Assembly: GCF_000971135.1 (NCBI RefSeq)
Contig: NZ_BBLW01000007.1
Coordinates: 62,001-126,000, forward strand
Source: Demequina phytophila
GTDB taxonomy: Bacteria > Actinomycetota > Actinomycetes > Actinomycetales > Demequinaceae
Reading direction: 5' to 3'
Length of the DNA stretch: 64,000 nucleotides
How positions within the stretch are numbered: position 1 is the first letter of the stretch; every line of letters begins with the position of its first letter. A program made the translations under genes and the position numbers. The notes beneath the pieces are model-generated. The model made no database searches. It saw only the letters and a program-made list of their open reading frames with translations, and was not told where the DNA came from. Shown here in pieces: positions 1,468 through 63,961 of the stretch.

Positions 1468-2584
1468 GACGGCCCTTCATGAGGTCGAGGAAGCGGTCGA
1501 AGAGGTACGAGGCGTCGTGCGGACCGGCCGCCGCCTCGGGGTGGTACTGGACCGAGAACGCGGGGATGTCGCGGCACTCGAGGCCCTCGACCACGTTGTC
1601 GTTGAGGCACACGTGGCTCACCAGCACCTTGCCGTAGCCGTGCGGGCTGTCGGACTCGCCGTCCAGCGGCGCGTCGACGGCGAAGCCGTGGTTGTGCGCG
1701 GTGACCTCCACCTTGCCGGTGGTGCGGTCCATGACGGGCTGGTTGATGCCGCGGTGGCCGAACGCCAGCTTGTAGGTGCCGTAGCCGAGCGCGCGGCCCA
1801 GGATCTGGTTGCCGAAGCAGATGCCGAAGAACGGCACCTTCGCGTCGAGGATCTCGCGCAGCGTCGCGACTGTCGCGTCGGCGGCGCCCGGGTCGCCGGG
1901 TCCGTTCGAGAAGAACACGCCGTCGGGGTTCATCTCCAGGATGGACGATGCGGGGGTCACCGAGGGGACCACCGTCACCTTGATCCCGCGCTGGGCCATC
2001 TGCTGGGGCGTCATCGCCTTGATGCCGAGGTCGACTGCCACCACGTGGGCGACCTGCTGCCCCTCGGCCTCGACCACGTAGGGCTCGGTGACCGAGACCT
2101 CGTCGGCGAGGTGCGCGCCCTTCATCTGGGCGGACTCGCGCACCCGGGTGAGCAGGGCATCGTCCCCCGCGAGGGCCTCGCCCGAGAAGATGCCGGCGCG
2201 CATCACGCCGGCCGTGCGCAGGACGCGGGTGAGCTGGCGGGTGTCGATGCCGGAGATGCCGACGATCCCCTGGCTCACCAGGTCCTCGTCGAGGCTGCGC
2301 TGCGCGCGCCAGTTGGAGGGGCGGCGTGCGGGGTCGCGGACCACGTAGCCGGCGACCCAGTACTGGCGGGACTCGTCGTCCTCGTCATTGACGCCGGTGT
2401 TGCCGATGTGCGGCGCCGTCATCACGACGATCTGCTTGTGATAGCTCGGGTCGGTGAGGGTCTCCTGGTAGCCGGTCATGCCGGTGTTGAAGACGATCTC
2501 GCCGAGCGTCTCGCCGGTCGCGCCGTACGCGCGGCCCTCGAACGTCTGGCCGTCTTCCAGGACCAACACTGCACGGTCGCTCAT
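1460..2584 (-). CDS. carA: Carbamoyl-phosphate synthase small (glutaminase) subunit
   Basis: Glutamine amidotransferase subunit that hydrolyses glutamine and channels ammonia to CarB. The protein has 374 residues, normal for the family. The class I amidotransferase triad is visible: Cys256 in FFGICFGNQ, His348 and Glu350 in YHPEA. The ATG at 2584 overlaps the pyrC stop by 4 bases, and the TAA lies inside the first codons of carB. An upstream in-frame extension has the composition of a shadow frame and was not used. Two copies of the GGACGATGC repeat fall inside the gene, one read as Asp-Asp-Ala and one as Ala-Ser-Ser. Confidence 0.97.
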
Positions 2585-3888
2585 GCGAACGCTCCTTCCA
2601 GCTGCGCGTCGAGATGGGTGGGGACGCCGCGCAGGAAGGTGGCCACCGCGCGGCCCGGCAGCTCGATGCCACCGTACGGGGTATTGGACGCGCGCGAGGC
2701 CAGGGCCTCGGGCGTCACGGTCCAGGCGGCCTTCGGGTCCACCAAGGTGAGGTTGGCGGGCTCGCCCTCGGCGATGGGGCGGCCGTGGAGGTGGTCCACC
2801 TGGCCGATGCGCGCGGGCGCCTCCGACATGAGGCGGGCGACGTCGCGCCAGGTGGCGGCGCCGGTGTCGACCAGGACCTTCTGGATGACGCCGAGCGCGG
2901 TCTCGAGGCCGAGCATGCCGAACGATGCGGCGGCCCACTCGCAGTCCTTGTCCTCGCTCGCGTGCGGGGCGTGGTCGGTGGCGATGATGTCGATGGTGCC
3001 GTCCGCGACCGCGGTGCGGAGCGCGTCGACGTCGGCCTGGGTGCGCAGCGGCGGGTTGACCTTGAACAGCGGGTCGTAGGTGCGCGCGGACTCGTCGGTG
3101 AGCAGCAGGTGGTGCGGGGTCGCCTCGGCGGTGACCTTGATGCCGCGCTCCTTGGCCCAGCGGATGATCTCCACGGAGCCGGCGGTGCTGAGGTGCTGGA
3201 CGTGGACGCGGGAGCCGACGTGCTCGGCGAGGAGGGCGTCGCGGGCGACGATCGACTCCTCGGCGACGGCGGGCCAGCCGGCGAGGCCGAGCTCGGCGCT
3301 CACCTCGCCCTCGTGCATCTGGGCGCCCTCGGTGAGACGGAGGTCCTGCGCGTGCTGGACCACGGCGCCGTCGAACGTCTTCACGTACTCGAGGGCGCGG
3401 CGCATGATCACCGGGTCGTAGACGCAGACGCCGTCGTCGGAGAACAGGCGGACGCGGGCCTTGGAGCTGGCCATGGCGCCCATCTCGGACAGGTGCTCGC
3501 CCTTGAGACCGATGGTGACGGCGCCGACCGGGTAGACGTCGATCAGGCCGATCTCCTGGCCGCGGCTGTAGACCTGCTCGACCACGCCGGCGGTGTCCGC
3601 GACGGGGTTCGTGTTGGCCATCGCGTGGACGGCGGTCCAGCCACCGCGGGCGGCGGCGCGGGAGCCGGTCTCGATGGTCTCGGCGTCCTCGCGGCCGGGC
3701 TCGCGCAGGTGGGTGTGGAGGTCCACCAGGCCCGGGAGGACCACGAGGCCGTCGGCCTCGACGACCACGGCATCGTCCGGGGTCTCGATGGTGTCGGCGA
3801 CCTTGGTGATCACCCCGTTCTCGATGAGGAGGCTGGCGACGGTGTCGCCGTAGAGGTTGGCGTTCTTGATGACGATGGGGCGGCTCAC
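2581..3888 (-). CDS. pyrC: Dihydroorotase
   Basis: Zinc amidohydrolase that converts carbamoyl-aspartate to dihydroorotate, the third step of de novo pyrimidine synthesis. The 435-residue protein carries the metal motif [10 protein letters not shown] (His58, His60) and the catalytic-aspartate motif ATDHAPH at 303-309. This is the long, type I-like dihydroorotase usually found next to pyrB in Gram-positive bacteria. The start overlaps pyrB by 4 bases and the stop overlaps carA by 4 bases, so it sits in the middle of a tightly coupled operon. A GGACGATGC repeat near residues 38-40 is read as Asp-Asp-Ala. Confidence 0.97.
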
Positions 3889-5374: not shown

Positions 5375-5381
5375 CTGGCGA

Positions 5382-5417
5382 CCTCCTTCCCCGCCTCTCT
5401 GGACGGTCCTTAAAGGA
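5382..5417 (-). promoter_or_regulatory. Predicted PyrR-binding RNA hairpin overlapping the pyrR ribosome binding site
   Basis: In the transcript, bases 5405 to 5392 read CGUCCAGAGAGGCG. This fits the PyrR-binding consensus ARUCCNGNGAGGYU at 12 of 14 positions, and the two outer changes keep base pairing (C-G in place of A-U). The upper stem is CCG / CGG plus CC / GG around an AGAGA loop with a bulged U. A lower stem can form between CCUU (5416-5413) and AAGG (5388-5385) with a purine-rich internal loop between. The 3' strand of that lower stem is part of the Shine-Dalgarno GGAAGGAGG at 5390-5382. PyrR binding would therefore mask translation initiation, as described for Mycobacterium smegmatis. 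Confidence 0.8.
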
Positions 5418-6403: not shown

Positions 6404-6443
6404 GCGGCGCGTGAAGGCGCGGGGCGCCGGGCGGGAGGCTGGC

Positions 6444-12003: not shown

Positions 12004-12036
12004 ACGGACGAGCCTATCGGGGGACGATGCCCCGGT

Positions 12037-13128: not shown

Positions 13129-13649
13129 GCGCGCTCCTTCAGCTCCGCGTCGATGCGGACTGCGACGTCGGTGGGGCTGGTCTTGTCCGTGAGAATGGTG
13201 ACGGTCGCGAGGCGCTCGTAGATGGGACGGCGGGCGTCCATGAGCGCAACCCACTGGGCGCGCGGGTTTCCCACGAGCAGCGGCCGGGAGGCGTTGAGGC
13301 CGACGCGCGGCGCAGCCGCGGCAAGGGAGACGTCGAGGAACACCACCGCTCCGCCCTCCGCGGCGTACGCCTCGAGCAGCGCCTGGGTCTCTGCCGCCAA
13401 AACAGCGCCACCGCCCAGGGCGAGGACGCCGTCGTGGGTGCGCAGCGCATCGTCCACGGCCTCCCGCTCGATGGAGCGGAAGGTCGCCTCGCCGTCCTCG
13501 AGGAAGACGTCGGGGATGGACTTGCCGGCGCGCTGCTCGATGTCGGTGTCGGTGTCGCGGCGCTCGACCTGCCACAGGCGCGCGAGCGCCTTGGCGACAG
13601 TGGACTTGCCCGAGCCGGGCGGGCCGATCAGGACCGCGCGGGGCGCCAT
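13125..13649 (-). CDS. aroK: Shikimate kinase
   Basis: Phosphorylates shikimate at O3 with ATP. The 174-residue P-loop kinase carries IGPPGSGKST (Walker A at residues 9-17), the shikimate-binding DTDTDIEQRAG region, and the GGGAVL loop. Its ATG shares one base with the aroC stop (TGATG), so translation is coupled. A GGACGATGC copy is read as Asp-Asp-Ala in EAVDDALRTH. Confidence 0.96.
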   Translation of the reverse strand: MAPRAVLIGPPGSGKSTVAKALARLWQVERRDTDTDIEQRAGKSIPDVFLEDGEATFRSIEREAVDDALRTHDGVLALGGGAVLAAETQALLEAYAAEGGAVVFLDVSLAAAAPRVGLNASRPLLVGNPRAQWVALMDARRPIYERLATVTILTDKTSPTDVAVRIDAELKERA

Positions 13650-15811: not shown

Positions 15812-16600
15812 TCACTCCTCCGTGGTCTCAGTGCTGGCTGCGGGGCTCGGCTCGGCGCTGGCAGCAGCCTCGGTCTCGGCCGTGGCGGTCGCCTCGTTAC
15901 CGTTCGCGGCGACGATGGACACCGCGTCGACGCCGGACAGCGAGCCCTCCGGAGTGAGCCGCCCGGTGAGCCTGAGGTCGGTGATGATCGCGCTGCCGCT
16001 CACCCGGTAGTACGTAGTTGCGCCGTCCTCCTCGTAGGCCTCAGAGGTGCCACGCACGTTCGCGATACCCGGGAGCGCCTCGAGCCGCTCGAGCAGCTTG
16101 GTGGCGTCGTCGAGGCTCTCGGCCCGCGCGGAGAAGGTGACGCCTCCCACGCCTCCGCCGAAGAGGTCGTCGTCGACGGTGCCGAGCGCCGTGGCGTTCG
16201 GGCCGAGGACATCGATCTGGTCGAAGCTCGTCGAGTCGTTGGCGACCGATTGGAACGCGGCGGTGAGGGCCGAGTAGCTGAGTTCGCCGTACCCCACCTG
16301 GGCGAGCGCGTACTCCTGCTGCTCCCTCGCCAGGACGTCGGTGTACACCGACGCCTTCGCGTCGCGAGCCGCGACCGAGGTCGCCTCGGTGGCGGCGGCA
16401 TCGTCGAGCTCACCCTGAGCGAGCCCCGCTGCGGCAAGCGCACCCAGATAGCCGAGCACCGCCAGCGCGACGGCGCCGACGATGGCGAGGATCGCGAGTC
16501 CTCGCACGGTGTTCATCTTCTTGCGCTCGGCGATCTCCGCCGGGATCAGGTTGACGCCGGGGAGGCCGGGCGCACCGTACTTGAGAGCGGTCTCGTTCAC
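15812..16600 (-). CDS. pilN: Type IV pilus assembly protein, PilN-like
   Basis: The cytoplasmic N-terminus has the PilN signature GVNLIPAEI (about residues 15-23), the short peptide that docks into PilM. A single helix follows at about 34-62, then a coiled coil and a ferredoxin-like extracellular domain, and finally an Ala/Glu/Thr-rich tail. Length is 262 residues. It overlaps pilM by 4 bases and is followed by pilO after one base. Together PilM-PilN-PilO make the alignment complex. PilP and PilQ are absent, as expected without an outer membrane. Confidence 0.88.
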   Translation of the reverse strand: MNETALKYGAPGLPGVNLIPAEIAERKKMNTVRGLAILAIVGAVALAVLGYLGALAAAGLAQGELDDAAATEATSVAARDAKASVYTDVLAREQQEYALAQVGYGELSYSALTAAFQSVANDSTSFDQIDVLGPNATALGTVDDDLFGGGVGGVTFSARAESLDDATKLLERLEALPGIANVRGTSEAYEEDGATTYYRVSGSAIITDLRLTGRLTPEGSLSGVDAVSIVAANGNEATATAETEAAASAEPSPAASTETTEE

Positions 16601-17655
16601 TTCGCACTCCTCATGCCGAGGCCGACGGCCACTGCCAGCGACGACTCGCGGCCCTGCAGCTGCGTCGCATCGACCTTCTTGCCCAGGTTCATGCCGGCCA
16701 GCGGCTCGCCCAGCATGACCGGAAGGCGCGTGGCGCTAGCCAGCGACTGACCGAGGCCGCGCAGCTGGCTGCCGCCTCCGGTCAGGACCACACGCTCGAC
16801 GGCGCCGCCGGGGTTGGAGCTCGCGAAGTACACGAGCGTGTTGCGCACGGCCTCGATGAGCGGGTTAAGCGAGTGCGCTGCCGCCTCGGCGAGACCACGC
16901 CGCTCGGGGTGGACGTTCATGTCCATGCCGATCTCGCGCTTCACCATCTCGGCATCTGCGCCCGCGCCCTTGAGCGCCAGCGCGATCGCCTTGGTCGCGT
17001 CGCCCGCGGCCTGCGGGATCGCACGCACCAGGCGCGGGACCCCCGACTGAGCGATGACCACGGTGGTCGTCTCCGCGCCGATGTCGACGATCGCGACATT
17101 GGAGCCGAGCATTGGCCCGCGCACCAGGTCGCGGCAGAGCCCGAACGCCGAGTGGTCGACCACGGACACGGCCAGGCCGGCCTTCTCGGTGACCTCGATG
17201 GCGTCGCGCACGAGCGCCTTGGGCGCGGCGATCAGCAGTCCGCGCAGCGTCGGACCTGACTGACTGTCGAATTCATGCGTGGGATAGAAGTCGAGGATCG
17301 CCTCGTCGGCCGCCATGGGCAGCTGGTCCTGGACCTGGAACGCGAGCGACTGTCGGATCTCAGGCATCGGTTGGGCGGGGATGTCCACCTCGCGCACCAC
17401 GATGCTGGGGTGTCCCAGACCGATCGTGACCGTCTTCGTCGACGGCTTCGCCTTGGCGAACGCCTCGCGCACCACGTCCGCGAGAGCGGAAGGCTCGTGG
17501 ATAGTCCGATCGCGGACCACACCCGCGGGCACCGCCACCTCGCCGAACGCGTGCAGCGTCGCCCCCTCACGCGGGTCCTTGCCCGAGCCAAGCTCGACCT
17601 CCACCACCCGAACGGACGCCGTACCGATGTCAATCGCTACAGTTCTCGCCCCCAT
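16597..17655 (-). CDS. pilM: Type IV pilus assembly ATPase-like protein PilM
   Basis: Actin/FtsA-like cytoplasmic protein that forms a ring with PilN around the motor. The 352-residue sequence has the phosphate-1 motif VAIDIGTASVRVVEV at the N-terminus, VAIVDIGAETTTVV (phosphate 2) in the middle, and the adenosine motif VVLTGGGSQLRGL near the C-terminus. The ATG at 17655 has GGAAGG upstream. It lies 58 bases after the prepilin peptidase gene and overlaps pilN by 4 bases. Confidence 0.93.
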   Translation of the reverse strand: MGARTVAIDIGTASVRVVEVELGSGKDPREGATLHAFGEVAVPAGVVRDRTIHEPSALADVVREAFAKAKPSTKTVTIGLGHPSIVVREVDIPAQPMPEIRQSLAFQVQDQLPMAADEAILDFYPTHEFDSQSGPTLRGLLIAAPKALVRDAIEVTEKAGLAVSVVDHSAFGLCRDLVRGPMLGSNVAIVDIGAETTTVVIAQSGVPRLVRAIPQAAGDATKAIALALKGAGADAEMVKREIGMDMNVHPERRGLAEAAAHSLNPLIEAVRNTLVYFASSNPGGAVERVVLTGGGSQLRGLGQSLASATRLPVMLGEPLAGMNLGKKVDATQLQGRESSLAVAVGLGMRSAK

Positions 17656-17713: not shown

Positions 17714-18499
17714 TCAGATCCCGAGAATTGTCCCGAGATACCACTCTGCGATTGCCGGACCGACGAGCACTCCCGTCACCGCACCGACGCACATCCACGG
17801 ACCGAATGGAATCGCGACACCTCGACCCCGCCCGCTTCGCGCCATCACCACGAGGCCCACCGCCGCTCCCCAGACGAACGCCGCGAAAGCGCCGACCACG
17901 AGCTGCGGCCACCCCAGGAATGCGAGCACCGCGCCGATGGTGGGCGCGAGCTTGACGTCACCGAATCCCATCCCCTTCGGGTAGACCACGAAGGCGATCC
18001 CGTAGAGCAGACCGAGCGCCACCGCTCCGGTGACCGCCCGGAGGGCCGGCGACCAATCCCCGGTGAACGCCGCCGGCACCAGGATCGCCAGCGACGCTGT
18101 GATGGCGAACGCCGCGGTCAACGGGTTCGGCAGCCGCCGCGTCTCGAGATCGATCGCGGAAAGAACGATCCCGAAATACACCAGAGCAAGCAGGGCGAAC
18201 GTGGTGGCACCCGGTCCCGAGAACCAGGTCACGAGGCCGAACGCGACGCCGGTGCCCAACTCCACCAACGGGTATCGGCCGCTGATAGGGGCGCCGCAAG
18301 CCGCGCATCGTCCCCTCAGCCACAGCCACCCCACCACCGGGACGTTATGCCGCGCCTTGATGCGCGTACCGCACCTCGGGCACGCGCTCGGCGGCGACAC
18401 GATCGACAGCCCGAGCGGTACCCGGTGGATCAGCACGTTCGCGAACGAGCCGAGCAACAGGCCGAACAGGACGGCGATCGCCGTCAGGATTCCCGTCAT
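17714..18499 (-). CDS. pilD: Prepilin peptidase / N-methyltransferase
   Basis: Membrane aspartyl protease that cleaves prepilins after Gly and methylates the new N-terminus. The 261-residue protein has the cytoplasmic zinc-type tetracysteine (Cys40, Cys43, Cys65, Cys68) of full-length PilD enzymes, and the catalytic aspartates Asp117 (SAIDLETRRLP) and Asp181 (GFGDVKLAP). About seven to eight membrane helices are visible. Having the methyltransferase part separates it from the short TadV type. In Mycobacterium a lone prepilin peptidase occupies a similar place beside aroE; here the whole pilus locus is present. Confidence 0.95.
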   Translation of the reverse strand: MTGILTAIAVLFGLLLGSFANVLIHRVPLGLSIVSPPSACPRCGTRIKARHNVPVVGWLWLRGRCAACGAPISGRYPLVELGTGVAFGLVTWFSGPGATTFALLALVYFGIVLSAIDLETRRLPNPLTAAFAITASLAILVPAAFTGDWSPALRAVTGAVALGLLYGIAFVVYPKGMGFGDVKLAPTIGAVLAFLGWPQLVVGAFAAFVWGAAVGLVVMARSGRGRGVAIPFGPWMCVGAVTGVLVGPAIAEWYLGTILGI

Positions 18500-20373: not shown

Positions 20374-20383
20374 GTCCGTTGTC

Positions 20384-21517: not shown

Positions 21518-21910
21518 CTACGCGCAGGTCGTCGCGCCCTCGAACAGCGTGCCGGTCTCGTCAATGGCGAAGTTCTTCTTGTCACCCTGCGGGTTGGAGC
21601 CCGTGATGCAGAAGCTAGCGGAGGTGATCGCCACGCTGTTGGCAACAGAAACGCCAGGCGACTCCTTGAACGACGAGATGTCGATCGTCGCAGCCGTCGG
21701 GTGGTCGACGAGCTGGCTTGCGACCTCGATCTGGGCGTTCTTCAGGTCGGACTTGACTGCCGCGTCGCGGGCCTTTGCCTGCTGGTTGAGGTACAGCGGG
21801 ATCGCGACGGCAGCGAGGATACCGATGATGATGATGACGACGAGGAGTTCGACGAGGGTGAAGCCCTTGTCGTCCTTCTCCTCCATTGCCTTGCGGATGC
21901 GAGCGAGCAT
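21518..21910 (-). CDS. pilA: Major type IV pilin
   Basis: The 130-residue prepilin has the leader MLARIRKAMEEKDDKG, cleaved after Gly16, then mature FTLVELLVVIIIIGILAAVA with Phe +1 and Glu +5. The 114-residue mature protein ends with a Cys101-Cys129 pair that would close the usual D-region. A strong ribosome binding site (AAGGGAGGG) precedes the ATG, and a strong hairpin follows the stop. Both suit a highly expressed structural subunit. The 99-base gap to pilC may hold its own promoter. Confidence 0.95.
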   Translation of the reverse strand: MLARIRKAMEEKDDKGFTLVELLVVIIIIGILAAVAIPLYLNQQAKARDAAVKSDLKNAQIEVASQLVDHPTAATIDISSFKESPGVSVANSVAITSASFCITGSNPQGDKKNFAIDETGTLFEGATTCA

Positions 21911-22009: not shown

Positions 22010-23251
22010 TTACCCGATCAGATCGAAGACCTTGAAGATGGGCATATAGAGCGCGATCACCATGCCGCCGATCATGCCGCCGAGGAACGCAATCATGATC
22101 GGCTCGATCAGGCTCGTCAGTTGCTCGGTGGTCGACTCGACCTCCTGGTCGTAGAAATCCGCGACTTTGTCCAGCATCACGTCGAGCGCGCCCGTGTCCT
22201 CGCCCACCGCGATCATCTGCACCACCATCGGAGGAAACACGCTGTGCTGCGTGAGCGGACCTGCAAGCGAATCACCGCGTCGCACGGAGTCCTGAACCGC
22301 CTTGGTGGCGTCCTCGATGACGATGTTGCCCGATGCTTGGCCGACTATGTCGAGCGCTTGCAGGATCGGTACGCCTGAGCGAATCATCGACCCGAAGTTG
22401 CGAGTGAATCGAGCAACGGCGATCTTCTGCAGCAGAGGTCCGAACACGGGCACCTTGAGGTAAACCGGTTCGACCTTCACGCGGATCTCACGACGATGCT
22501 TGTTCTTGCGCCACCACATCGAGAACGCCACCAAACCGATGACCAGCGGAACTGTGGCAATCTTGAGAATCGACGACAGCCACACCAAGATCTGCGTCGG
22601 AAGCGGCAGCTCACCGCCGAGTCCTTCAAACATGTCGGCGAACACCGGCACGATGAACAGCAGCATCGCGGCAACGGCGAGAATCGCGATGCAAAACACG
22701 ACCACCGGGTACGTCATCGCCGACTTGATCTTGCCGCGGAGCGCCACTTCCTTCTCGAAGTTCACCGCGATCGACACGAGCACCTGGTCAAGGAAACCGC
22801 CAAGCTCGCCGGCCTTGACCATGTTGATCATGATCGGGGGGAAGGTCTCCGGGTGACGCGCCAGCGCCACGGAAAACGACTTTCCAGTCTCGACGTCGGA
22901 ACGAACCTCACCCAACACCTTCTGCAGCGCCTTGTTCTCAGTCTGCTCGGTGAGGATCTGCATCGCGCGTAGCAGCGACAGGCCCGCAGAGATCATGGTC
23001 GCGAGCTGGCGCGACATGATCGCGATGTCCTTGAGGCCGATCTTCTCCCCGAGGCCGGGGATCTTGATCTCGGCGTTGAGACCCTTCGCCGTTGCGTCTT
23101 CGACGTGCAGCACGGTGAACCCACGCTCGCGCAAGCGTGAAGCCACCGCCTGCGACGACGGCGCTTCCATCTCGTCGGTGCGCGTCTTCCCCTGCGCGTC
23201 ACGGATCGTGTACGTGAACTTCTGGGTCGCGGACTTGGTCGCGGTTGCCAT
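22010..23251 (-). CDS. pilC: Type IV pilus platform protein PilC
   Basis: Polytopic inner-membrane platform that couples the PilB and PilT motors to pilin insertion and removal. After an N-terminal segment (about 1-65) come two repeated GspF/T2SF domains (about 75-200 and 275-400) with three to four hydrophobic helices. Typical phrases are MSRQLATMISAGLSLLRAM and FTRNFGSMIRSGVPILQAL. Length is 413 residues. The ATG at 23251 lies 11 bases after pilT. Reading further upstream gives shadow-like sequence. Confidence 0.95.
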   Translation of the reverse strand: MATATKSATQKFTYTIRDAQGKTRTDEMEAPSSQAVASRLRERGFTVLHVEDATAKGLNAEIKIPGLGEKIGLKDIAIMSRQLATMISAGLSLLRAMQILTEQTENKALQKVLGEVRSDVETGKSFSVALARHPETFPPIMINMVKAGELGGFLDQVLVSIAVNFEKEVALRGKIKSAMTYPVVVFCIAILAVAAMLLFIVPVFADMFEGLGGELPLPTQILVWLSSILKIATVPLVIGLVAFSMWWRKNKHRREIRVKVEPVYLKVPVFGPLLQKIAVARFTRNFGSMIRSGVPILQALDIVGQASGNIVIEDATKAVQDSVRRGDSLAGPLTQHSVFPPMVVQMIAVGEDTGALDVMLDKVADFYDQEVESTTEQLTSLIEPIMIAFLGGMIGGMVIALYMPIFKVFDLIG

Positions 23252-23262
23252 GGCTCGCTCCC

Positions 23263-24891
23263 CTACCGTCCGTGCCGGCCGCAGAGGCGGTTGAACTCTT
23301 CGAAGGACTGCGCCATCTCGACCGCGTTCTCGTAGTCGACCTTGCCCGACTTCACCAGCTCGGCGAGGTGGTAGTCCATGGTCTGCATGCCCTGCGACGC
23401 GCCACCCTGCATCGAGGTGAAGATCTGGTGCGTCTTGCCCTCGCGGATGAGGTTCCGGATGCCGGGGGTGGCGACCATGATCTCGACGGCGACCGCACGG
23501 CCGGGGCCGTCGGCGCGCTTGAGGAGCGTCTGGCACAGCACGCCCTGGATGGCGGCGGCCAGCTGCGTGCGCACCTGTCCCTGCTGCTCCGGCGGGAAGA
23601 CGTCGATGATGCGGTCCATGGTCTGCGGCGCGGACTGCGTGTGCAGCGTCGCGAACACCAGGTGACCCGTCTCGGCGGCGGTGAGCGCCACTGAGATGGT
23701 CTCGAGGTCGCGCATCTCACCGATGAGGATGATGTCCGGGTCCTGACGCAGCACGTGCTTGAGCGCCTTGCCGAAGGACCGGGTGTCCGCGCCGACCTCG
23801 CGCTGGTTGACGATCGACTTCTTGTGACGGTGCAGGAACTCGATCGGGTCCTCGACCGTCATGATGTGCGCGGCACGCGACCGGTTCGCGAGGTCCACCA
23901 GCGACGCGAGCGTCGTGGACTTGCCCGAACCCGTCGGACCCGTGACGAGCACCAGGCCACGCGGCAGCTGCGCGAAGTTCGAGACGACCTCGGGGATGCC
24001 GAGCGCCTCGAGCGGTTTGATCTCGTAGGGGATCACGCGGAACGCGGCACCGAGAGAGTCGCGCTGGCGGTACAGGTTCACGCGGAAGCGGGACTCCCCC
24101 ACCACCGAGTACGAGAAGTCGAGCTCGAGCTCCTCCTCGAACTTCTCGCGCTGCGCCTGGGTCAGGATTCCGAAGAGCGACCGGTGCAGGCTCTCCGGCG
24201 TCAGCCGCCCGAAGCCCTCGAGAGGCGTGAGACCGCCGTCAAGGCGGATCATGGGCGGCACACCCGTGGTGAGGTGAAGGTCGGAGGCCTTCGCCGCGAT
24301 CATCGCCCGCAGCGCGGCGTTGATGTCGAGGTCGCCCTCCTGGCGCTGGTTGTTCGCGCCGACACGGGCGCCACCCGGGGTCACGGGCGCCGCCGGCTTC
24401 TTGGGCTCGGGCGCCTGCTTGACCTCCGGCTCGCGGACAGAGTCGTCCATCGGCATGAAGGACCGGGGACCGCCCAGGTGCTCCTGGGCGGCGGCGGCGA
24501 ACGCGGCTGCCGGGTCGGACGCGCCGCCGGCGGCGACGCCCACGGGCGCGGGTGCCGGGATCGGAGGAGTCTGCGGGGCCGGCGGCTGCTGCATCGACTG
24601 CGGAGCCGATGCGCCGGGCGCCGCGGCCATCGGCCGACGCTCCTCGAGGAACGGCGCGCGGCGGGTCGCGGTCCCGCGGGAGTCGGAGTGGAGCGACGGT
24701 CCGGTCGGAAGCACGGGCGCAGCCGGAGCGGCTTGCGGAGAAAGTGCGGGGGCGGGAACACTCGGCGCACCCTGACCGTTGGAAGGAGCGGACGCGACAG
24801 GAGGAACGGACGCCGCGGCCGGCGGGACAGCAGGCTGCGCGGCGGGCGGCGGCGTGGGCCGCCAGGGCTCCCCAGGCGTGAACTCGTTCAC
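23263..24891 (-). CDS. pilT: Type IV pilus retraction ATPase PilT with a long disordered N-terminal extension
   Basis: Hexameric ATPase that powers pilus retraction. From about residue 188 the protein is a standard PilT: KASDLHL, Walker A GPTGSGKST (318-326), Asp box VEDPIE (346-351), Walker B GEMRD (391-395), His box HLVFATLHT (410-418), and the PilT-specific GIRNLIRE (477-484) near the end. The first ~185 residues are Pro/Ala-rich low complexity, about half as long again as the core, and unusual for PilT. I start at the GTG at 24891 with GAGGGAGG just upstream; a TTG eight codons earlier would overlap that site. Presence of PilT implies retractile pili, needed for twitching or DNA uptake. 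Confidence 0.93.
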   Translation of the reverse strand: MNEFTPGEPWRPTPPPAAQPAVPPAAASVPPVASAPSNGQGAPSVPAPALSPQAAPAAPVLPTGPSLHSDSRGTATRRAPFLEERRPMAAAPGASAPQSMQQPPAPQTPPIPAPAPVGVAAGGASDPAAAFAAAAQEHLGGPRSFMPMDDSVREPEVKQAPEPKKPAAPVTPGGARVGANNQRQEGDLDINAALRAMIAAKASDLHLTTGVPPMIRLDGGLTPLEGFGRLTPESLHRSLFGILTQAQREKFEEELELDFSYSVVGESRFRVNLYRQRDSLGAAFRVIPYEIKPLEALGIPEVVSNFAQLPRGLVLVTGPTGSGKSTTLASLVDLANRSRAAHIMTVEDPIEFLHRHKKSIVNQREVGADTRSFGKALKHVLRQDPDIILIGEMRDLETISVALTAAETGHLVFATLHTQSAPQTMDRIIDVFPPEQQGQVRTQLAAAIQGVLCQTLLKRADGPGRAVAVEIMVATPGIRNLIREGKTHQIFTSMQGGASQGMQTMDYHLAELVKSGKVDYENAVEMAQSFEEFNRLCGRHGR

Positions 24892-24978
24892 TTTTCCTCC
24901 CTCAGCTGGAAGCAAAATCTAGCGCTTCCTTCGCATAGAAATATCGGCACATTCCCCGCGTGTCTGTAGTGATGTGAC

Positions 24979-26640
24979 TTATTTCACGACACGGAGCAAT
25001 TCCTCCAGGGACGTCGTGCCGTCCATCACCTTCGCCCAGCCGTCTTGGATGAGCGTCTCCATGCCCGCATCGACAGCTGCATTCGCGATCTCCGCCGACG
25101 ACGCACGCGCGACCGTGAGCCGCTCGATCTCCTCGTTGATCGGCATGATCTCGTGCAGCGCCACACGTCCCCGGTAGCCGGTGTTGGAGCACCGCTGGCA
25201 GCCCTCTGGCCGCAGGATCGGCGGGATCGACTGGTTCGGGTTCCACTTGATCGCCGGCGGCAGGTCGTGCGGGTCGATCCGGTGCTCCACCGCGCAGTGG
25301 TCGCACAGGCGCCGCGCGAGTCGCTGAGCGACCACGCAGTCGATCGCGGAGCCCACCAGGAACGGCTCGATGTCCATCTCTATCAGGCGTGTCATCGCCG
25401 ACGGCGCGTCGTTGGTGTGAAGGGTCGACAGCACCAGGTGACCGGTGAGCGCCGCCTCGATCGCGATCTGCGCGGTCTCGCCGTCACGCACCTCACCCAC
25501 CAGCACCACGTCCGGGTCGGCACGCAGGATCGAGCGCAGCGCGGCCGCGAACGTGAGTCCCGCCTTGGGGTTCACCTGCACCTGGTTGATGCCCGGGATG
25601 CGGTATTCGACCGGGTCCTCGACGGTGATGACGTTGACCTCGGGCTTCGAGATCTGGTTGAGCGTCGCGTACAACGTGGTCGACTTTCCGGAACCCGTGG
25701 GCCCGGTCACAAGGATCATGCCGTACGGCTTCTGGTACGCGCCGGCGTAGATCCGCTGGTTGTTCTCGCGAATTCCGAGGTCCTCGAGCGCGAGCCGCGC
25801 GGTCGAATTGTCCAGAATTCGCATGACGACCTTCTCTCCCCACACCGTGGGAAGGGTGGCCACGCGGAGGTCGATCTTGCGACCCTCGTGGTTGACCGAG
25901 AGGCGGCCATCCTGCGGCTTGCGCCGTTCGGCGATGTCGATGTCCGACATGATCTTGAGGCGCGAGATCACGCCGCCGGTGATCGCCTTGGGCGCCCGCT
26001 GCATCTCGTGCAGCACGCCGTCGATGCGGTAGCGGACGCGCAGATCGTGCTCCGCCGGCTCGATGTGGATGTCCGAGGCGCGGTCCTGCACGGCCTGCGT
26101 GATGAGCAGGTTGACGAAGCGCACAATCGGCGCGTCGTCGTCCGCCGCGGAGCTCAGGTCCTCGTTGTCGAGCGATGCCTCGGTCTCGATCGACTCCTGC
26201 AGGTCCTCCATCTCCGCGTCGGAGCGCACGTAGCGCGCGATCGCCGCGGCGACATCGTCGTGCGCGGCCACCACGGGGATGACGCGCATCTTCGTGATGG
26301 TGCTGATGTCGTCCACCGCGACCACGTTGCCGGGGTTCGACATCGCGACGTGGATCAGCCCGTCGCCCATCGCGATCGGCAGCGCCATGTGGCGACGGCA
26401 CACCGCGCCCGGCACCAGGGCGACGGCCGCGCGGTCCACCGGGTAGTCCCCGAGCTCGACGAACTCCATGCCCACCTGCGTGGCGAGCGCGCGCACCAAC
26501 TGGCCCTCGGAGATGTAGCCCATCTCGACGAGCGTCCGCCCGAGGGACTGTCCCCGCTCCTTCTGCTCGTCGATCGCGTCGACCAGCTGGTCCTCGGTGA
26601 GCGCACCATCCTCGAGCAGGATGGTCCCCAGCTGCTTCAT
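24979..26640 (-). CDS. pilB: Type IV pilus extension ATPase PilB
   Basis: Hexameric motor that drives pilus polymerisation. The 553-residue protein has the N-terminal T2SE/MshEN domain (about 1-140), the N2 core, Walker A GPTGSGKST (313-321), VEDPVE, GEVRD, and the C-terminal zinc tetracysteine Cys446, Cys449, Cys481, Cys484 typical of PilB and absent from PilT. The ATG at 26640 has GGGAG five bases upstream. It opens the pilus locus, 73 bases after aroE. Confidence 0.96.
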   Translation of the reverse strand: MKQLGTILLEDGALTEDQLVDAIDEQKERGQSLGRTLVEMGYISEGQLVRALATQVGMEFVELGDYPVDRAAVALVPGAVCRRHMALPIAMGDGLIHVAMSNPGNVVAVDDISTITKMRVIPVVAAHDDVAAAIARYVRSDAEMEDLQESIETEASLDNEDLSSAADDDAPIVRFVNLLITQAVQDRASDIHIEPAEHDLRVRYRIDGVLHEMQRAPKAITGGVISRLKIMSDIDIAERRKPQDGRLSVNHEGRKIDLRVATLPTVWGEKVVMRILDNSTARLALEDLGIRENNQRIYAGAYQKPYGMILVTGPTGSGKSTTLYATLNQISKPEVNVITVEDPVEYRIPGINQVQVNPKAGLTFAAALRSILRADPDVVLVGEVRDGETAQIAIEAALTGHLVLSTLHTNDAPSAMTRLIEMDIEPFLVGSAIDCVVAQRLARRLCDHCAVEHRIDPHDLPPAIKWNPNQSIPPILRPEGCQRCSNTGYRGRVALHEIMPINEEIERLTVARASSAEIANAAVDAGMETLIQDGWAKVMDGTTSLEELLRVVK

Positions 26641-26713
26641 CGATGCTCCCTCATGCCGCGACGGAAAGTGTGCCGAACCTACCATCGGCACAGCGTCGCG
26701 AATGCTGAAGTGA

Positions 26714-29131: not shown

Positions 29132-31796
<2,665 letters not shown>

Positions 31797-34397: not shown

Positions 34398-34460
34398 GCG
34401 CCCAGCGTAGGCGGTGGCACCGACAGCCAGGTGACCACCGCATCGTCCCCCGGAACGACG

Positions 34461-41886: not shown

Positions 41887-43248
41887 CTAGCCGCGGACGA
41901 TGCGCGGGTTCAGGTCCTCGGTCGGGGGCGCCCAGGCGTCGGCGTCGGCGGGGACCTGGTCGCCCGAGCGGATGTCCTTGACCTCGCCGTCGGGCGACGT
42001 GCCGTCGCCGGCGGCAGGGAACCACACGAACGGGATGCCGCGGCGGTCCGCGTACTGGATCTGCTTGCCGAACTTGGCGGCGTTGGGCGACACCTCGGTG
42101 GCGATGCCGCGGGCGCGGAGGCGATCCGCGATCGCCGTGGACGCGGCGCGGTGCTCCTCGTCGGTGACGGCGACCAGGACGGCCTGCGGCACGGAGCGGG
42201 ACGCGGTCGCGAGGCCCGCGCCGAGCATGCGGCTCACCAGGCGGCTCACGCCGATCGACATGCCGACGCCGGGGAAGCCGCCGCCGGCGACCAGCGAGTC
42301 GTAGCGGCCGCCGGAGCAGATCGAGCCGAGGTCCTCGTGACCGTCCAGGACGGTCTCGTAGACGGCGCCCGTGTAGTAGTCGAGGCCGCGCGCGATCCGG
42401 AGGTCCGCGATCGCGGTCTCGGGGACGGCGGTGTTGACCGCGTCCACCAGCGCCGCGAGTGACCGGGCGCCGCGATCGAACTGGGCCCGCGCATCGTCCG
42501 CCTCCTCGACGATCGGGCTGTGGTCCCACAGCGCCTCGACCAGGTCGAGGAAGGAGCCGTCGGGCGTCTGGATCGCGGCGAGCTCGAGGATCGCGTCGAC
42601 GGCCTCGGGGCTGACGCCCTTGCCGTGGAGCTCCTCGCGCACGCCGTCGGGGCCGATCTTGTCGAGCTTGTCGACGCTGCGCAGCGCGCCCGCGACGTCC
42701 GCGATGCCGACGCCCCGGTAGAAGCCCTCGACCAGCGCGCGGTTGTTGAGGTGCATGCGCGCGGGAGGCAGCGGCAGTGCGCGCAGGGCGCGGGCCATGA
42801 CGATCGCGACCTCGGCCTCGAGGTGCTCGGGCAGGGTGTCCCGCCCCACCACGTCGATGTCGGCCTGGTAGAACTCGCGGAATCGGCCCTCCTGCGGGCG
42901 CTCGCCGCGCCACACCTTCTGGATCTGGAAGCGCCGGAACGGGAACTGCAGGCGGCCCTGGTTCTCCTCGACGTACCGCGCGAACGGCACCGTGAGGTCG
43001 AAGTGCAGGCCCAGCTTGGCCTCGCGACCGGCCTGCTCGTCGGCGTTGAGGCGACCGATCGCGTAGATCTCCTTCGACGCGTCCGAATCGCCTGCGAGAC
43101 GGTCCACCGGCTCCACCGCACGGGTCTCGATCTCACCGAAGCCGTGCAGCGCGAACACCTCGCGCAGCGTCGCGAGGACGTGCGCCTCGACAAGGCGCTC
43201 CTGCGGGGACCATTCGGGGAATCCGGAGAGGGGTTGCACGCGTGCCAT
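41887..43248 (-). CDS. hisS: Histidyl-tRNA synthetase
   Basis: Class II synthetase of 453 residues. Visible are LSGFPEWSPQERLVE at the N-terminus, motif 2 RFREFYQADIDVVG, the histidine motif RGLDYYTGAVYE, and motif 3 GVGMSIGVSRL, followed by the anticodon domain. I chose the ATG at 43248 (MARVQPLSGFPEW), as in relatives; an in-frame ATG three codons earlier (43257) is also possible. It is divergent from the cyclophilin gene. Two GGACGATGC copies lie in it, one across the last codons (Arg-Ile-Val). Confidence 0.95.
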   Translation of the reverse strand: MARVQPLSGFPEWSPQERLVEAHVLATLREVFALHGFGEIETRAVEPVDRLAGDSDASKEIYAIGRLNADEQAGREAKLGLHFDLTVPFARYVEENQGRLQFPFRRFQIQKVWRGERPQEGRFREFYQADIDVVGRDTLPEHLEAEVAIVMARALRALPLPPARMHLNNRALVEGFYRGVGIADVAGALRSVDKLDKIGPDGVREELHGKGVSPEAVDAILELAAIQTPDGSFLDLVEALWDHSPIVEEADDARAQFDRGARSLAALVDAVNTAVPETAIADLRIARGLDYYTGAVYETVLDGHEDLGSICSGGRYDSLVAGGGFPGVGMSIGVSRLVSRMLGAGLATASRSVPQAVLVAVTDEEHRAASTAIADRLRARGIATEVSPNAAKFGKQIQYADRRGIPFVWFPAAGDGTSPDGEVKDIRSGDQVPADADAWAPPTEDLNPRIVRG

Positions 43249-44117: not shown

Positions 44118-45691
44118 CCGAGTCGTCCGACGCTCCGGCGCCGAAGACCGAGGCCCCCGAGGCCGCGTCCCAGCCCACCCCCGAGGCCGTGGCGGAGGTG
44201 ACCGAGACCGTCGAGGTCGCCGCCGAGGCTCCCGTCGAGGAGGCGCCTGCCGAGGTCGCAGACGCCCCTGCCGAGGCCGAGGCTCCCGCGGAGGAGCCCG
44301 CAGCCGAGGAGGAGGCGCCCGCCGCATCGTCCCCCGCGAAGAAGGGCCCGAAGCCGCGCGCTCCCAAGCCGGGCGCGTTCAAGGCCCCGTCGCCGGTCGC
44401 CGTCGCCAAGCAGGCGACGCACACGGTCGTGGTGGTGCCGGTCGCCGCGGAGGTGCCGGAGGAGCGCTTCGAGGAGGCGCTCGCGCACGGCCTGGTCGAG
44501 GACGGCAAGGCGTACGTGATCATCGCCGAGGAGCGCGTCGAGGTCGGTCCCGCCGAGGACGACGAGGCCCTCAAGCCCTACGCGCACGCGTTCTTCGAGC
44601 TCGAGGCGTCGGTGGAGCGTTTCCACGCCCGCCTGTCCTCCGCGGAGCTCTCCCCCAAGGACATCGACGAGTCGATCGCCTCGATCGAGGCTGTCCTCAC
44701 CCCGGTGAGCGTGGTGGGCGACCTCGACACGCTGGTCGAGCGCTACGCCGCGGTGAAGGCGGAAGCCGAGGAGACGCGTACGCGCATCCAGGAGGAGCGT
44801 CGCGTGGCCCGCGAGGCCGCCGTGGCCTCGCGCGAGGAGATCGTGTCGACGGCCGAGGCGCTCGCCGCGAAGCCCGAGACGCAGGTCCACTGGAAGAACG
44901 ACACCGCCACCCTGCGCGGGCTGCTCGACGCGTGGAAGGAGGCGCAGCGCTCCGGCGCACGCATCCCCAAGGACGTCGAGCGCGCCCTGTGGACGCGCTT
45001 CACGCACGCGCGGTCCGCGTTCGAGAAGGCCCGCAAGCACCACTTCGCGGAGCTCGACCGGTCCAACGCGGACGTCGCGGGCCGCAAGGAGGAGCTGGTC
45101 GCGAAGGCCGAGTCGCTCGCCCAGACCACCGACTGGGACACCGGCGCACGCGGCTTCCGCGACCTCATGAACGAGTGGCGCACCGCCGGCCGGGGCCGCC
45201 GCTCCGTCGACGACGCGCTGTGGAAGAGGTTCCAGAACGCACAGGACTCGTTCTTCGAGGCCCGCCGCGGTGCGGCCGACGCGGAGGACGAGGCGCTGTC
45301 GGGCAACGTCGACGCCAAGGAGGCCGCCGTGGCCGAGGCCGAGGCGCTTCTGCCCATCAAGGACCTCAACGCCACCAAGCAGGCGCTCCGCCCCATCCAG
45401 GACCGCTTCGAGGCCGCGGGCCGCGTCCCGCGCGCCGACATCGCGCGCCTGTCCAAGCGCATGGGCGCCGTCGAGAAGGCCGTCCGAGACGCCGAGGACG
45501 CGGAGTGGAACTCGCGCAACCCCGAGCTCGAGGCGCGCGCCTCGGGCGCGGCGGCGCAGCTGGGCTCCGCGATCGCGGCGCTCGAGGCCGAGATCGCCGA
45601 GGCGAAGGCCAAGGGCAAGGACACCAAGAAGCTCGAGGAGTCGCTGGCGGCCCGCCGGCAGTGGCTCACCCAGATCGAGGGGCTCGCGTAA
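44114..45691 (+). CDS. DUF349-repeat protein
   Basis: The 525-residue cytoplasmic protein has a Pro/Ala/Glu-rich disordered N-terminus (about 1-95) and a basic patch (KKGPKPRAPKPG), then a conserved segment with VEDGKAYVIIAEERVEVG, and several helical DUF349 repeats (about 230-480) with repeated W-K-R-F patterns such as DALWKRFQNAQDSFFEARR. Related proteins occur beside relA in many Actinobacteria; the function of DUF349 is unresolved. It is coupled to the cyclophilin by a 4-base overlap and followed by a terminator. Confidence 0.88.
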   Translation: MTESSDAPAPKTEAPEAASQPTPEAVAEVTETVEVAAEAPVEEAPAEVADAPAEAEAPAEEPAAEEEAPAASSPAKKGPKPRAPKPGAFKAPSPVAVAKQATHTVVVVPVAAEVPEERFEEALAHGLVEDGKAYVIIAEERVEVGPAEDDEALKPYAHAFFELEASVERFHARLSSAELSPKDIDESIASIEAVLTPVSVVGDLDTLVERYAAVKAEAEETRTRIQEERRVAREAAVASREEIVSTAEALAAKPETQVHWKNDTATLRGLLDAWKEAQRSGARIPKDVERALWTRFTHARSAFEKARKHHFAELDRSNADVAGRKEELVAKAESLAQTTDWDTGARGFRDLMNEWRTAGRGRRSVDDALWKRFQNAQDSFFEARRGAADAEDEALSGNVDAKEAAVAEAEALLPIKDLNATKQALRPIQDRFEAAGRVPRADIARLSKRMGAVEKAVRDAEDAEWNSRNPELEARASGAAAQLGSAIAALEAEIAEAKAKGKDTKKLEESLAARRQWLTQIEGLA

Positions 45692-45721
45692 CCCGCGCAA
45701 CCCGCGCATCGTCCAGGCTCC

Positions 45722-45946: not shown

Positions 45947-46486
45947 ATGATCCTGGTGCGACCTGACGACGTCGGTCCCGCCGCCTTCGCACGCCTGCTG
46001 CGCGACCGTCACCTGGCGCACCTCCTGCCCGGGGTCGCCCGTCCCGCCGACATCCCCGACTCCCCCGGCCTGCGCGCGCTCGCCGCCGCCGACCGGGTCC
46101 CCACGCACGTGGTCCTGACCGGCCTCGCGGCGCTGTGGGTGCACTGCTGGAGGGACGATGCCCCGGCCGGGTGGCACGCGGTGGGTGTCCGGGGGCTCTA
46201 CCGCCCGGCGAGCACCGCGGTGCGGCTCCACTCGGGCCCGACGGCGCGCCTGGGAGCGACGGTCGAGGGCGGGCTGCGCCTCGCTCCCCCGGCGCGCGCA
46301 TGCGTCGACGCGCTGCGGTGGGAGCCGCCCCACGCGGCGCTGCACACGGTGGCCGGAGCGGTCGCCCGCGGCCGCCTCGCCCCCGCGGACCTCGAGGCGG
46401 CCCTGCGTCACGACGCGCGCTCGAGCGCCGGCTACGCGCGCGTCGCCGGGCTGGTGGAGGCGATCAGGGCCGCTTGGTCCCCGTGA
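45947..46486 (+). CDS. Uncharacterised 179-residue protein (faint resemblance to AbiEi-type antitoxins)
   Basis: No confident family. The protein is soluble and rich in Ala, Arg and Leu. The pattern of a short N-terminal helical part, then VVLTGLAALWVHCW, a VRLHSG strand, and ACVDALRW followed by AALHTVAGAVARGRL faintly recalls the layout of actinobacterial AbiEi-like proteins, but a helix-turn-helix is not clear. The ATG at 45947 (or the GTG at 45944) is preceded by a weak GGG. Its end overlaps the end of relA by 23 bases on the opposite strand. Three short repeats lie upstream. It interrupts the usual relA-ppi adjacency. Confidence 0.6.
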   Translation: MILVRPDDVGPAAFARLLRDRHLAHLLPGVARPADIPDSPGLRALAAADRVPTHVVLTGLAALWVHCWRDDAPAGWHAVGVRGLYRPASTAVRLHSGPTARLGATVEGGLRLAPPARACVDALRWEPPHAALHTVAGAVARGRLAPADLEAALRHDARSSAGYARVAGLVEAIRAAWSP

Positions 46487-48800: not shown

Positions 48801-48834
48801 GGGGGACGATGCGGCGGTCGCCGCATCGTCCCCC
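48801..48834 (-). terminator. Terminator of secDF made of two inverted GGACGATGC repeats
   Basis: A perfect 14-base-pair stem (48801-48814 with 48821-48834) with a 6-base loop starts 30 bases after the secF stop. Each arm contains one full GGACGATGC copy (48804-48812 and, inverted, 48823-48831). This use of paired repeats as a terminator is characteristic of DNA uptake sequences in Neisseria. Confidence 0.85.
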
Positions 48835-52850: not shown

Positions 52851-53433
52851 GCGTGCCTCCCAGGTGCTTGAGCGCGGACCGCAGCGCGGTACCCGTCTCA
52901 GACGCCGCCAGCGGATCCGGGGCGACCGCATCGACGGCCGCCTGCGCCTGCTTGGCCGGGTAGCCGAGTCCCACGAGGGCCTCGACCACCTCGCCGCGGG
53001 CGTCCGCGGCGGGGGCGCCCGGGGCATCGTCCGGCAGCACCAGCTTGCCGCCGAGCTCGAGCAGCAGCCGTGCCGCCACCTTGGGGCCGATCCCGGGGAC
53101 CTTGGTGAGCGCCTTCTGGTCGCCGGCGGCGACCGCGGCCGCGAGGGCCTCCGGAGAGTGCACCGCGAGCATGGCCAGCGCGAGCTTGGCTCCCACGCCC
53201 TGGACGCTCTGGAGCTGCTCGAACGTGTCGCGCTCCCCCGCGCTGAGGAAGCCGAACAGCGTCATCGAGTCCTCGCGCACCACCATGTGGGTGTGCAGCG
53301 TCGCATCCAGGCCCGCCCGGAGCTCCGCGAGGGTCGCGGGCGTCGCGAGCACCCGGTAGCCCACGCCGGCGACGTCCAGCACCAGCGCCGTCGCGCCCGC
53401 ATGCGCCACGGTCCCCCTGAGCTGTGCGATCAC
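52843..53433 (-). CDS. ruvA: Holliday junction branch migration protein RuvA
   Basis: Tetrameric junction-binding protein. The 196-residue sequence has an N-terminal OB domain ([13 protein letters not shown]), two helix-hairpin-helix motifs ([16 protein letters not shown] and [19 protein letters not shown]), and a C-terminal RuvB-binding domain ([17 protein letters not shown]). The start is a GTG at 53433 with GGGGA upstream. The flexible linker carries one GGACGATGC copy, read as Asp-Asp-Ala. Confidence 0.96.
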
Positions 53434-54827: not shown

Positions 54828-54931
54828 GTGTGCTCCTCGTCGAATGTCGGTCTGGAATCCCGTCCAGTGTAGTGCGTGGCAGCGGGGACGATGCGGCGGT
54901 CGGGCGGGCGGTCGGCCCACCGGACCGCGGT

Positions 54932-56052: not shown

Positions 56053-56072
56053 GCGTGCGTGAACCTGGTGCC

Positions 56073-60224: not shown

Positions 60225-60226
60225 CG

Positions 60227-62218
<1,992 letters not shown>

Positions 62219-62309
62219 AGGTCACTCCCTCGAAGGTTCGGTTGTACGGGACGATGCTACCGAGAGGGCGAGGCTCGCCGCGTCACCGGCGGTCGCAGCC
62301 CGGCGGGTG

Positions 62310-63884
62310 CTACAGCCCCTGTCCCCCGTCCCACAGCCGCTCCGACGCGCCGGACACCAGGTTGGCGACGGACATCGCCTGCGCGTCGGTGAGCGAGGCG
62401 ACGTAGTCGATGATGCCGCGGCCTGTCGCGTAGCGGCGCAGCGTGGCCGCATCCGTGGTCGGCAACGTCTCCGGGCGCGTGTCGCGGACCTTGAGATAGT
62501 CCTCCGCGGCGAGCTCGACCAGGTCGAGCAGGCGGCGAGGCGCGCGGCGCACCTCGTCGTCGTCGTCCAGCCACGCCGCGAAGCTGGTGACGAGCCGCTC
62601 GATCACGCTCGCCTGGCCGCGCTGGTAGAGCGCGAGGTCGGGGCGGTGCAGCACGAACCTCTCCTGGAGGAACTTGAGCACCGCGACGTCGTGGAACGCC
62701 GAGGCGTCGAGGCTCACGTGACCGGACCGGATGTGCGGGTCGCGCGACACCGAGATCGAGTGCTGGAGGCGTGCGATCCAGCCGGCCATGAACACGGCGA
62801 GCGTACGATCCGCGGCCAGCGAGCCGTCGTACGGCACCGACAGCAGGCCGTCCACCACCTCGTCGGCGACGCGGGCGACCGACTCGCCGAACGCATCGTC
62901 CCCCGCGATCCACGGGTCGTGGCTCACCAGGCGACGGCGCAGCAGCTCGAGGCCGTGGCCGGGCGTGCGGCGGGCGCGCAGCAGGTCCTCGCGCGGGATC
63001 GCGGCAAGGGCGGCGCGGTCCCGGATCCACGTACGGAACTCTGCGGACACGGCGGCCTGGTTGAGCAGGTCGGCGCGGTAGAAGTCGTCGAGGTCGTGCA
63101 GCGAGTACGCGATGTCGTCGGCGATGTCCATGACGGAGCACTCGACGGTCTGCTGCAGGTCGGCGATCGCGGGGAACGCGGAGCGCGCCGCCTGCATGTG
63201 GTCGAGGTCGAGCGTGTAGACCGAGAACTTCCGCGAGCCCTCCCCCGGCCGGCGCGGCGCGATGCCCCGCGGCGAGCCCGAACCGGGCGTCCAGCCCTCG
63301 CCCTGCGCGCGGGTCCACGGGTACTTGAGCACGGCCGCTCGGACGGCGGCGGTGAGGTTGAGGCCGGCCCCCGCGCGGTCGTACTCGTCGAGGCGGGTGA
63401 GGATCCGGAAGGTCTGGGCGTTGCCCTCGAAGCCCTCGTCGAGGCCGAACCGCTCGCGAGCGAGCCTGTCGAGCGTCTGCTCGCCCAGGTGGCCGAACGG
63501 CGGGTGGCCCAGGTCGTGCGCGCTCGCGGCGGCCTGCACCACCACGGCGTCGCAGCCTCCCAGGTCGCGCACCAGCGCGCCCCGCTCGCCCCAGTCCCCC
63601 GCGAGGGAGACGGAGATCGCGCGGGCCACGGCCGTCACCTTGACCGAGTGCGTGAGGCGGTTGTGCACCGCGAGGCCGGCGCCGGACTGCGAGATCACCT
63701 GGGTGACGGCCGACAGCCGGGAGAAGTACGGCGAGAAGCGGATCCGCTCGAGGTCGACGCGGTACTCGGGCCGGTACTCGACCAGCTGGAACTCGTCGAG
63801 CGTCTCGGGGACGGACCGTGCGACCCGCGGATCCGCCGCCACGGGGGTGGCCTCGGTGTCCGCCGCCTCGTCCGTCCCCGTCAT
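62310..63884 (-). CDS. dgt: dNTP triphosphohydrolase (dGTPase-like, HD domain)
   Basis: HD-domain enzyme of 524 residues that hydrolyses dNTPs to deoxynucleosides. The metal site is visible as His in HNRLTHS, then AHDLGHPPFGHLGE, and the later Asp in MDIADDIAYSLHDLDD. It is somewhat longer than typical (420-430) because of an N-terminal extension and inserts. The ATG at 63884 has GGGGAGG upstream. One GGACGATGC copy is internal (Asp-Asp-Ala) and copies flank the gene on both sides. Confidence 0.92.
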   Translation of the reverse strand: MTGTDEAADTEATPVAADPRVARSVPETLDEFQLVEYRPEYRVDLERIRFSPYFSRLSAVTQVISQSGAGLAVHNRLTHSVKVTAVARAISVSLAGDWGERGALVRDLGGCDAVVVQAAASAHDLGHPPFGHLGEQTLDRLARERFGLDEGFEGNAQTFRILTRLDEYDRAGAGLNLTAAVRAAVLKYPWTRAQGEGWTPGSGSPRGIAPRRPGEGSRKFSVYTLDLDHMQAARSAFPAIADLQQTVECSVMDIADDIAYSLHDLDDFYRADLLNQAAVSAEFRTWIRDRAALAAIPREDLLRARRTPGHGLELLRRRLVSHDPWIAGDDAFGESVARVADEVVDGLLSVPYDGSLAADRTLAVFMAGWIARLQHSISVSRDPHIRSGHVSLDASAFHDVAVLKFLQERFVLHRPDLALYQRGQASVIERLVTSFAAWLDDDDEVRRAPRRLLDLVELAAEDYLKVRDTRPETLPTTDAATLRRYATGRGIIDYVASLTDAQAMSVANLVSGASERLWDGGQGL

Positions 63885-63961
63885 CCATGCCTCCCCGTCC
63901 GTCCCTACCGGGACGGTAGCGACGCGGGACGATGCGGGCAAGGCCCCGCGCGGAGCCTCGC

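Follow-up and report, generated by a model that had tools for sequence, protein, structure and literature searches.

Uptake words have been described before in two Gram-negative families. In the Neisseriaceae, the DNA uptake sequences (DUS) are reported, in the excerpted text of one study, to occur in more than 1000 copies, to form inverted pairs associated with terminators, and to exist as dialects that follow lineage (PMC3630211). The uptake signal sequences (USS) of the Pasteurellaceae, as portrayed in excerpts of two papers, have a 9-base core and a weaker downstream block, exist in two dialects, and evolved in situ by molecular drive (PMC7811141, PMC12616744). Among actinobacteria, Micrococcus luteus is competent and has comEA, comEC and a type IV filament; the available portion of its description makes no mention of an uptake word (PMC6370729). 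Here we analyse a stretch of 64,000 nucleotides from Demequina phytophila (assembly GCF_000971135.1, contig NZ_BBLW01000007.1, positions 62,001 to 126,000; hereafter the window), and the 9-base word GGACGATGC that recurs across it and across the genome. We conclude that this word is probably the core of a DUS/USS-like DNA uptake sequence in Demequina (Actinomycetota, Micrococcales), with dialects among the species of the genus.

The resemblance to known systems extends to several features. Like the DUS as they appear in the excerpted account, GGACGATGC is a short, non-palindromic word with more than 1000 copies, inverted pairs and phylogeny-following dialects (PMC3630211); unlike them, it has other letters and belongs to another phylum, whose cell wall lacks an outer membrane. 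Its 9-base core with a preceding G and a GGTC-like block downstream recalls the USS as excerpted, whereas its flank is G+C-rich rather than A+T-rich, and its letters and phylum are again different. Like M. luteus, Demequina is an actinobacterium with comEA/comEC and type IV filament genes, but the filament of the former is of the Flp/Tad type in the accessible part of its description, and that of Demequina is of the PilB/T/C/M type (PMC6370729). The likeness to DUS and USS would reflect convergence, not descent. An initial annotation of the window had already read the repeat as a candidate uptake sequence, and this reading is supported by over-representation, strand balance, noncoding placement and inverted pairs, the genes present, the turnover of sites, and the dialects; an effect on uptake is what we infer from them.

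Abundance and placement of the word

The window (GC content 69.4%) contains 26 exact copies of GGACGATGC, 13 per strand; dinucleotide-preserving shuffles of the window gave a mean of 1.71 and a maximum of 5 (100 shuffles), and the order-0 expectation is 0.8, equal to the initial annotation's hand estimate. The over-representation reported there thus stands, and its count of 25 copies (12 and 13 on the two strands) is corrected to 26. The whole source genome (2.98 Mb, 12 contigs) has 772 forward and 766 reverse copies, 1538 altogether or one per 1.9 kb; the same letters read backwards occur 21 times (9 and 12).

The k-mer, coding and context statistics of the source genome come from a sample of 398,741 bases (398.7 kb, 13% of the source genome) with 192 copies of the word. 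Among 9-mers of this sample GGACGATGC is the most over-represented, with 192 copies against 17.8 under a fourth-order Markov model, the type of count that the initial annotation had proposed. Its 27 one-mismatch variants stand at 0 to 2.4 times expectation, none comparably enriched, and the word is therefore sharp. Around the core, a preceding G and a GGTC-like block (+12 to +15, counted from the first core base) are preferred, both across 191 copies and across the 50 of 64 noncoding copies that are left when 14 with a close partner are dropped; the extended form is approximately RGGGACGATGCGSSGGTC. Orientation is balanced on every sampled stretch of at least 60 kb, as had been claimed for the window (for example, 23+/25- on the stretches of contig C4 and 47+/47- on those of contig C6), while the smallest, 20-kb stretches vary (e.g., 3+/7-).

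Genes were called with our own codon-based caller (363 genes, 90.3% coding), and these calls are approximate. Copies that are not fully coding number 64 of the 192 against 18.5 expected, an enrichment of about 3.5-fold, with 1.66 copies per kb in noncoding and 0.36 per kb in coding DNA; because the caller missed at least one true gene (pilD), this excess may be somewhat overstated and some of the "noncoding" copies may be coding. Between genes, density is 2.51 per kb in convergent, 1.76 in co-directional, and 0.98 in divergent intervals. Within the sample there are seven inverted pairs in +/- order within 60 bp against about 1.4 expected, of which five overlap no called gene, and they fold at -26 to -49 kcal/mol (values without a shuffled control); further pairs within 60 bp comprise two in -/+ and two in +/+ order. 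The enrichment between genes and the pairing that the initial annotation expected of an uptake sequence are thus both present.

The remaining 128 copies lie in coding sequence, where synonymous codon shuffles gave a mean of 14.8 and a maximum of 25 (100 shuffles), which rules out an artefact of codon use. The initial annotation had proposed a codon-pair-aware model for this comparison; the excess found here is relative to a shuffle that preserves codon use only, codon pairs being broken up. Coding copies favour particular reading frames, encoding Asp-Asp in 65 of 69 cases on the same strand and Ala-Ser-Ser in 42 of 59 cases on the opposite strand.

Dialects and the history of word sites

We searched 119 genomes, the source included, of which 44 are Demequina and 75 lie outside the genus. 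In this comparison of related genomes, which the initial annotation had suggested, GGACGATGC is strong in 16 of the 44 Demequina genomes (929-1864 copies; the GGAC dialect) and occurs 49-275 times in the other 28, most of which carry one of two different words. Outside Demequina its counts are 5-399, the highest being in G098 (399) and G067 (203), both of one genus of another family. The second word, GGCCGATGC (the GGCC dialect), was first seen in named loci of other Demequina species; beyond the GGAC group, 18 genomes have 584-2018 copies of it, whereas GGAC genomes have 134-664, and it is weakly present in G007 (472) and G018 (409), whose GGCC label is weak because some GGAC genomes have as many (664 in G022, 488 in G037). 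The third, GCCCGACGC, was discovered by k-mer counting in G009 (22 in 60 kb) and G012 (47 in 107 kb), which have 1206 and 1101 copies of it in total; both genomes are low in GGACGATGC and GGCCGATGC, and the other 42 have 31-370 copies of it. The frame G-x-x-C-G-A-x-G-C is common to all three. Six Demequina genomes (G001, G003, G005, G013, G027 and G032) are rich in none of the three; a further word was sought in samples of 60-189 kb from G001, G003, G018 and G027 and was not found, while for G005, G013 and G032 the check covered just the three known words.

The dialects cluster by lineage. A ThrS tree with 43 genomes (a single gene with several weak forks; G041, whose gene is broken, was left out) requires 7 changes among the four labels, against a mean of 19.6 after shuffling and a possible minimum of 3. 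GGAC appears on this tree both in one large clade and, separately, in the lineage of G038 and G004, where G027 is without it.

Individual sites also turn over between dialects. Nine GGACGATGC sites from 14-38 kb of the window were aligned to orthologous loci of six GGAC and eight GGCC species. In the GGAC species 29 of 49 aligned cells are identical to GGACGATGC, against 30.1% of other 9-mers (controls: 11 of 35 for one-mismatch and 213 of 571 for two-mismatch 9-mers); in the GGCC species none of 40 is identical, against a background of 14.0% (controls: 5 of 40 and 93 of 623, respectively). Exact GGCCGATGC stands in 4 of the 37 ungapped GGCC cells, or three without Demequina sp. NBRC 110056, whose dialect is assigned from one locus only. 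These cells belong to the copy at 18305..18313 (-), within the prepilin peptidase open reading frame (ORF), in D. aestuarii; to the copy at 26930..26938 (+), in Demequina sp. NBRC 110057; and to the copy at 29241..29249 (+), in D. aestuarii and Demequina sp. NBRC 110056. Since only 6 of 89 cells are gapped (46 of 49 GGAC and 37 of 40 GGCC cells are ungapped), copies have been gained and lost by substitution, not as inserted elements. The species compared are related and hence not independent of one another, as the accompanying binomial values assume them to be.

Several observations lie beside these results. The pilus region of D. salsinemoris (L012) has a single GGACGATGC in 21.7 kb though the genome that seems to match it, G038, has 1864 copies; this stretch was perhaps recently acquired. 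Elsewhere in the order, one genus of a different family is rich in CGATGCCGTC (514, 492 and 584 copies in G098, G067 and G112, with loci L124-L131 belonging to G098), against 46-186 copies in the other 15 of the 18 genomes searched; this word has CGATGC in common with those of Demequina and might be a further uptake word. A k-mer test on pooled Cellulomonas/Actinotalea loci was uninformative, swamped by shared homology.

Machinery, proposed mechanism and alternatives

The window carries on its minus strand a cluster with pilB, pilT, pilC, a pilin, two minor pilins, pilD and pilM, the type IV pilus genes that the initial annotation saw there, and the com genes for which it advised a search are present in the source genome. 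There comEA and comEC adjoin at locus L196, outside the window (TIGR01259, 4.3e-22, and TIGR00361, 8.8e-40, both below curated cut-offs; TIGR00360 is above its cut-off at the same locus). Across the 44 Demequina genomes, ComEC and PilM were each found in 43 and DprA in all; the genome without ComEC and PilM, G005, is 85% complete. The minor pilins of the cluster come in two architectures (loci L001-L027), either two small proteins or one of about 600-680 residues and one small.

Most Demequina genomes have one small pilin that is unlinked to the pilus cluster, a weak candidate for the receptor of the word. The comP gene of Neisseria is likewise unlinked, and the parallel with DUS and ComP extends to a small unlinked pilin as possible receptor. 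One column of this pilin separates the dialects (12 I versus 12 V). A Foldseek search with the pilin model against the PDB gave nothing at an E value of 0.001 or below, and ComP was not among the 50 matches listed, which excludes nothing. The GGAC genome G026 (L172), without the usual unlinked pilin, has instead a neighbouring couple of other unlinked pilins (216 and 314 residues) that differ in their C-terminal parts. Within the uptake reading, the receptor might instead be a pilin of the cluster, a variant that we find possible but doubtful: in the GGAC genomes G011, G020 and G037, which have no unlinked N_methyl protein at an E value of 0.1, a cluster pilin scores highest against the profile of the unlinked pilin, but the dialect-separating column lies in the unlinked pilin, and both cluster architectures occur with both main dialects. 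Architecture, considered as a determinant of dialect, is therefore rejected.

Under the uptake reading, the type IV pilus would carry a receptor, most probably a pilin, with a preference for DNA that bears GGACGATGC; driven by PilB and PilT, the pilus would draw bound DNA across the cell wall; one strand would then enter by way of ComEA and ComEC; and DprA would aid recombination, the order of events after binding being borrowed from known competence systems. Fragments bearing the word would enter more often, such that copies arising by point mutation would spread by recombination (molecular drive); by this proposal the word builds up on both strands and is densest where it is least harmful. 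As the word changed among lineages, presumably together with its receptor, GGACGATGC, GGCCGATGC and GCCCGACGC would have resulted, with some lineages left without these words. We also lean, with less assurance, towards a broader view: an independently evolved system of self-recognition for natural transformation that would be the first among Gram-positive bacteria, comprising a bipartite word, at least three dialects, a variable pilin as reader, and a related-looking word, CGATGCCGTC, in another family.

Other functions could give rise to an abundant short word. It might be the site of a cytoplasmic chromosome protein (in nucleoid structure or segregation) or a Chi-like recombination signal, as sites of chromosome proteins can be short, sharp and chromosome-wide, and one per 1.9 kb would fit. 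FtsK orienting polar sequences (KOPS) and most Chi sites are strand-polar, however, and GGACGATGC is evenly divided between the strands on all the large stretches sampled, by which Chi and KOPS themselves are rejected; three spellings in one genus, and loss in some species, would moreover require a fast-changing essential protein, and the enrichment in inverted pairs and noncoding DNA follows from tolerance, not polarity. We regard this explanation as unlikely. Still less probable is a self mark used in defence or DNA modification, for instance a site of protective methylation: lineage-specific words that change between species are typical of modification systems too, but their sites are not expected to stand about eleven-fold above a Markov model, nor to be placed by tolerance; no search aimed at such a system was made. 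A role in transcription terminators, or in another RNA or regulatory element, might be supposed from the strong stems of the seven +/- pairs, five of which avoid called genes, and from the peak in density between convergent genes; opposite-strand pairs within 60 bp are only 9 among the 192 copies and 128 copies are inside coding sequence, such that a terminator family would account for a small part of the copies, and we give this the least credence of all.

A number of points weigh against an uptake sequence. No report of competence in Demequina was found in the open-licence literature. The presence of competence genes does not predict the word, since of the six genomes without a common word five have ComEC and PilM and all have DprA; DprA and ComEC are also common in control bacteria not known for a word. 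The ComEC match is split between frames in the word-rich G009, G026 and G041, reflecting either broken genes or assembly errors. The unlinked pilin has an acidic soluble part (net charge -2 to -16), it has no unlinked gene in 4 of the 16 GGAC genomes (G011, G020, G026 and G037), and its profile does not separate it sharply from the cluster pilins, which reach 149.6 bits. The label "none" may itself be incomplete, as a fourth word was sought only in samples of G001, G003 and G027.

In the open-licence literature we found no earlier report of an actinobacterial uptake word, in agreement with the initial annotation, to which none described in Actinobacteria was known, and a search by the letters of the word listed unrelated titles. 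If the uptake reading is true, Actinomycetota would be the third case of such words, sequence-specific uptake would need neither an outer membrane nor a secretin, and Demequina would offer an independent test of co-change between receptor and word and of uptake as a species barrier; with 44 genomes, at least three spellings and many cultured type strains, the question is directly testable.

Positions in the window and minor observations

Besides the three already located, exact copies of GGACGATGC lie at 1943..1951 (+), 2157..2165 (-), 3770..3778 (-), 13447..13455 (-), 27384..27392 (-), 33398..33406 (+), 33799..33807 (-), 36019..36027 (+), 36143..36151 (-), 41895..41903 (+), 42491..42499 (-), 44324..44332 (-), 46153..46161 (+), 53024..53032 (-) and 62893..62901 (-). 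Copies at 12022..12030 (+), 34440..34448 (-), 45706..45714 (-) and 62249..62257 (+) are between called genes, and those at 54886..54894 (+) and 63927..63935 (+) are outside called genes. An inverted pair at 48804..48831 (48804-48812 on the plus and 48823-48831 on the minus strand), between two minus-strand genes, forms a single long stem with an RNA fold of -36.5 kcal/mol.

The pilus genes, all on the minus strand, include pilB (24979..26691), the extension ATPase, which matches TIGR02538 at 639 bits, slightly below the cut-off of 675.65; its product shares 98% identity with the PilB of Demequina silvatica, 91% with the D. maris protein and 89% with the D. soli protein. The retraction ATPase gene pilT (23263..24915; TIGR01420, above cut-off) has a long Pro/Ala-rich N-terminal part in frame, and pilC (22010..23536; PF00482), for the platform protein, probably has an internal real start. 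These are followed by the pilin (21518..21910; PF07963), two minor pilins (20986-21438 and 20384-20989; each slightly below the PF07963 cut-off), an ORF of 693 codons with no Pfam match and a real start that is probably internal (18514-20595), the prepilin peptidase gene pilD (17714..18499; PF06750 and PF01478), and pilM (16597..17655; TIGR01175, above cut-off). A probable pilN (15812-16600; no Pfam match) and a probable pilO (14932-15810) are assigned by position and look only. The cluster is highly variable within the genus: PilM has 37-94% identity to that of the window, versus 78-98% for the products of intact thrS genes.

The strongest 9-mer unrelated to the word is CTCCCCCGC (GCGGGGGAG), with 53 copies against 10.8 expected in the own-genome sample (L081-L097 and the window); it is also high in the pooled GGCC loci (26 against 2.1).

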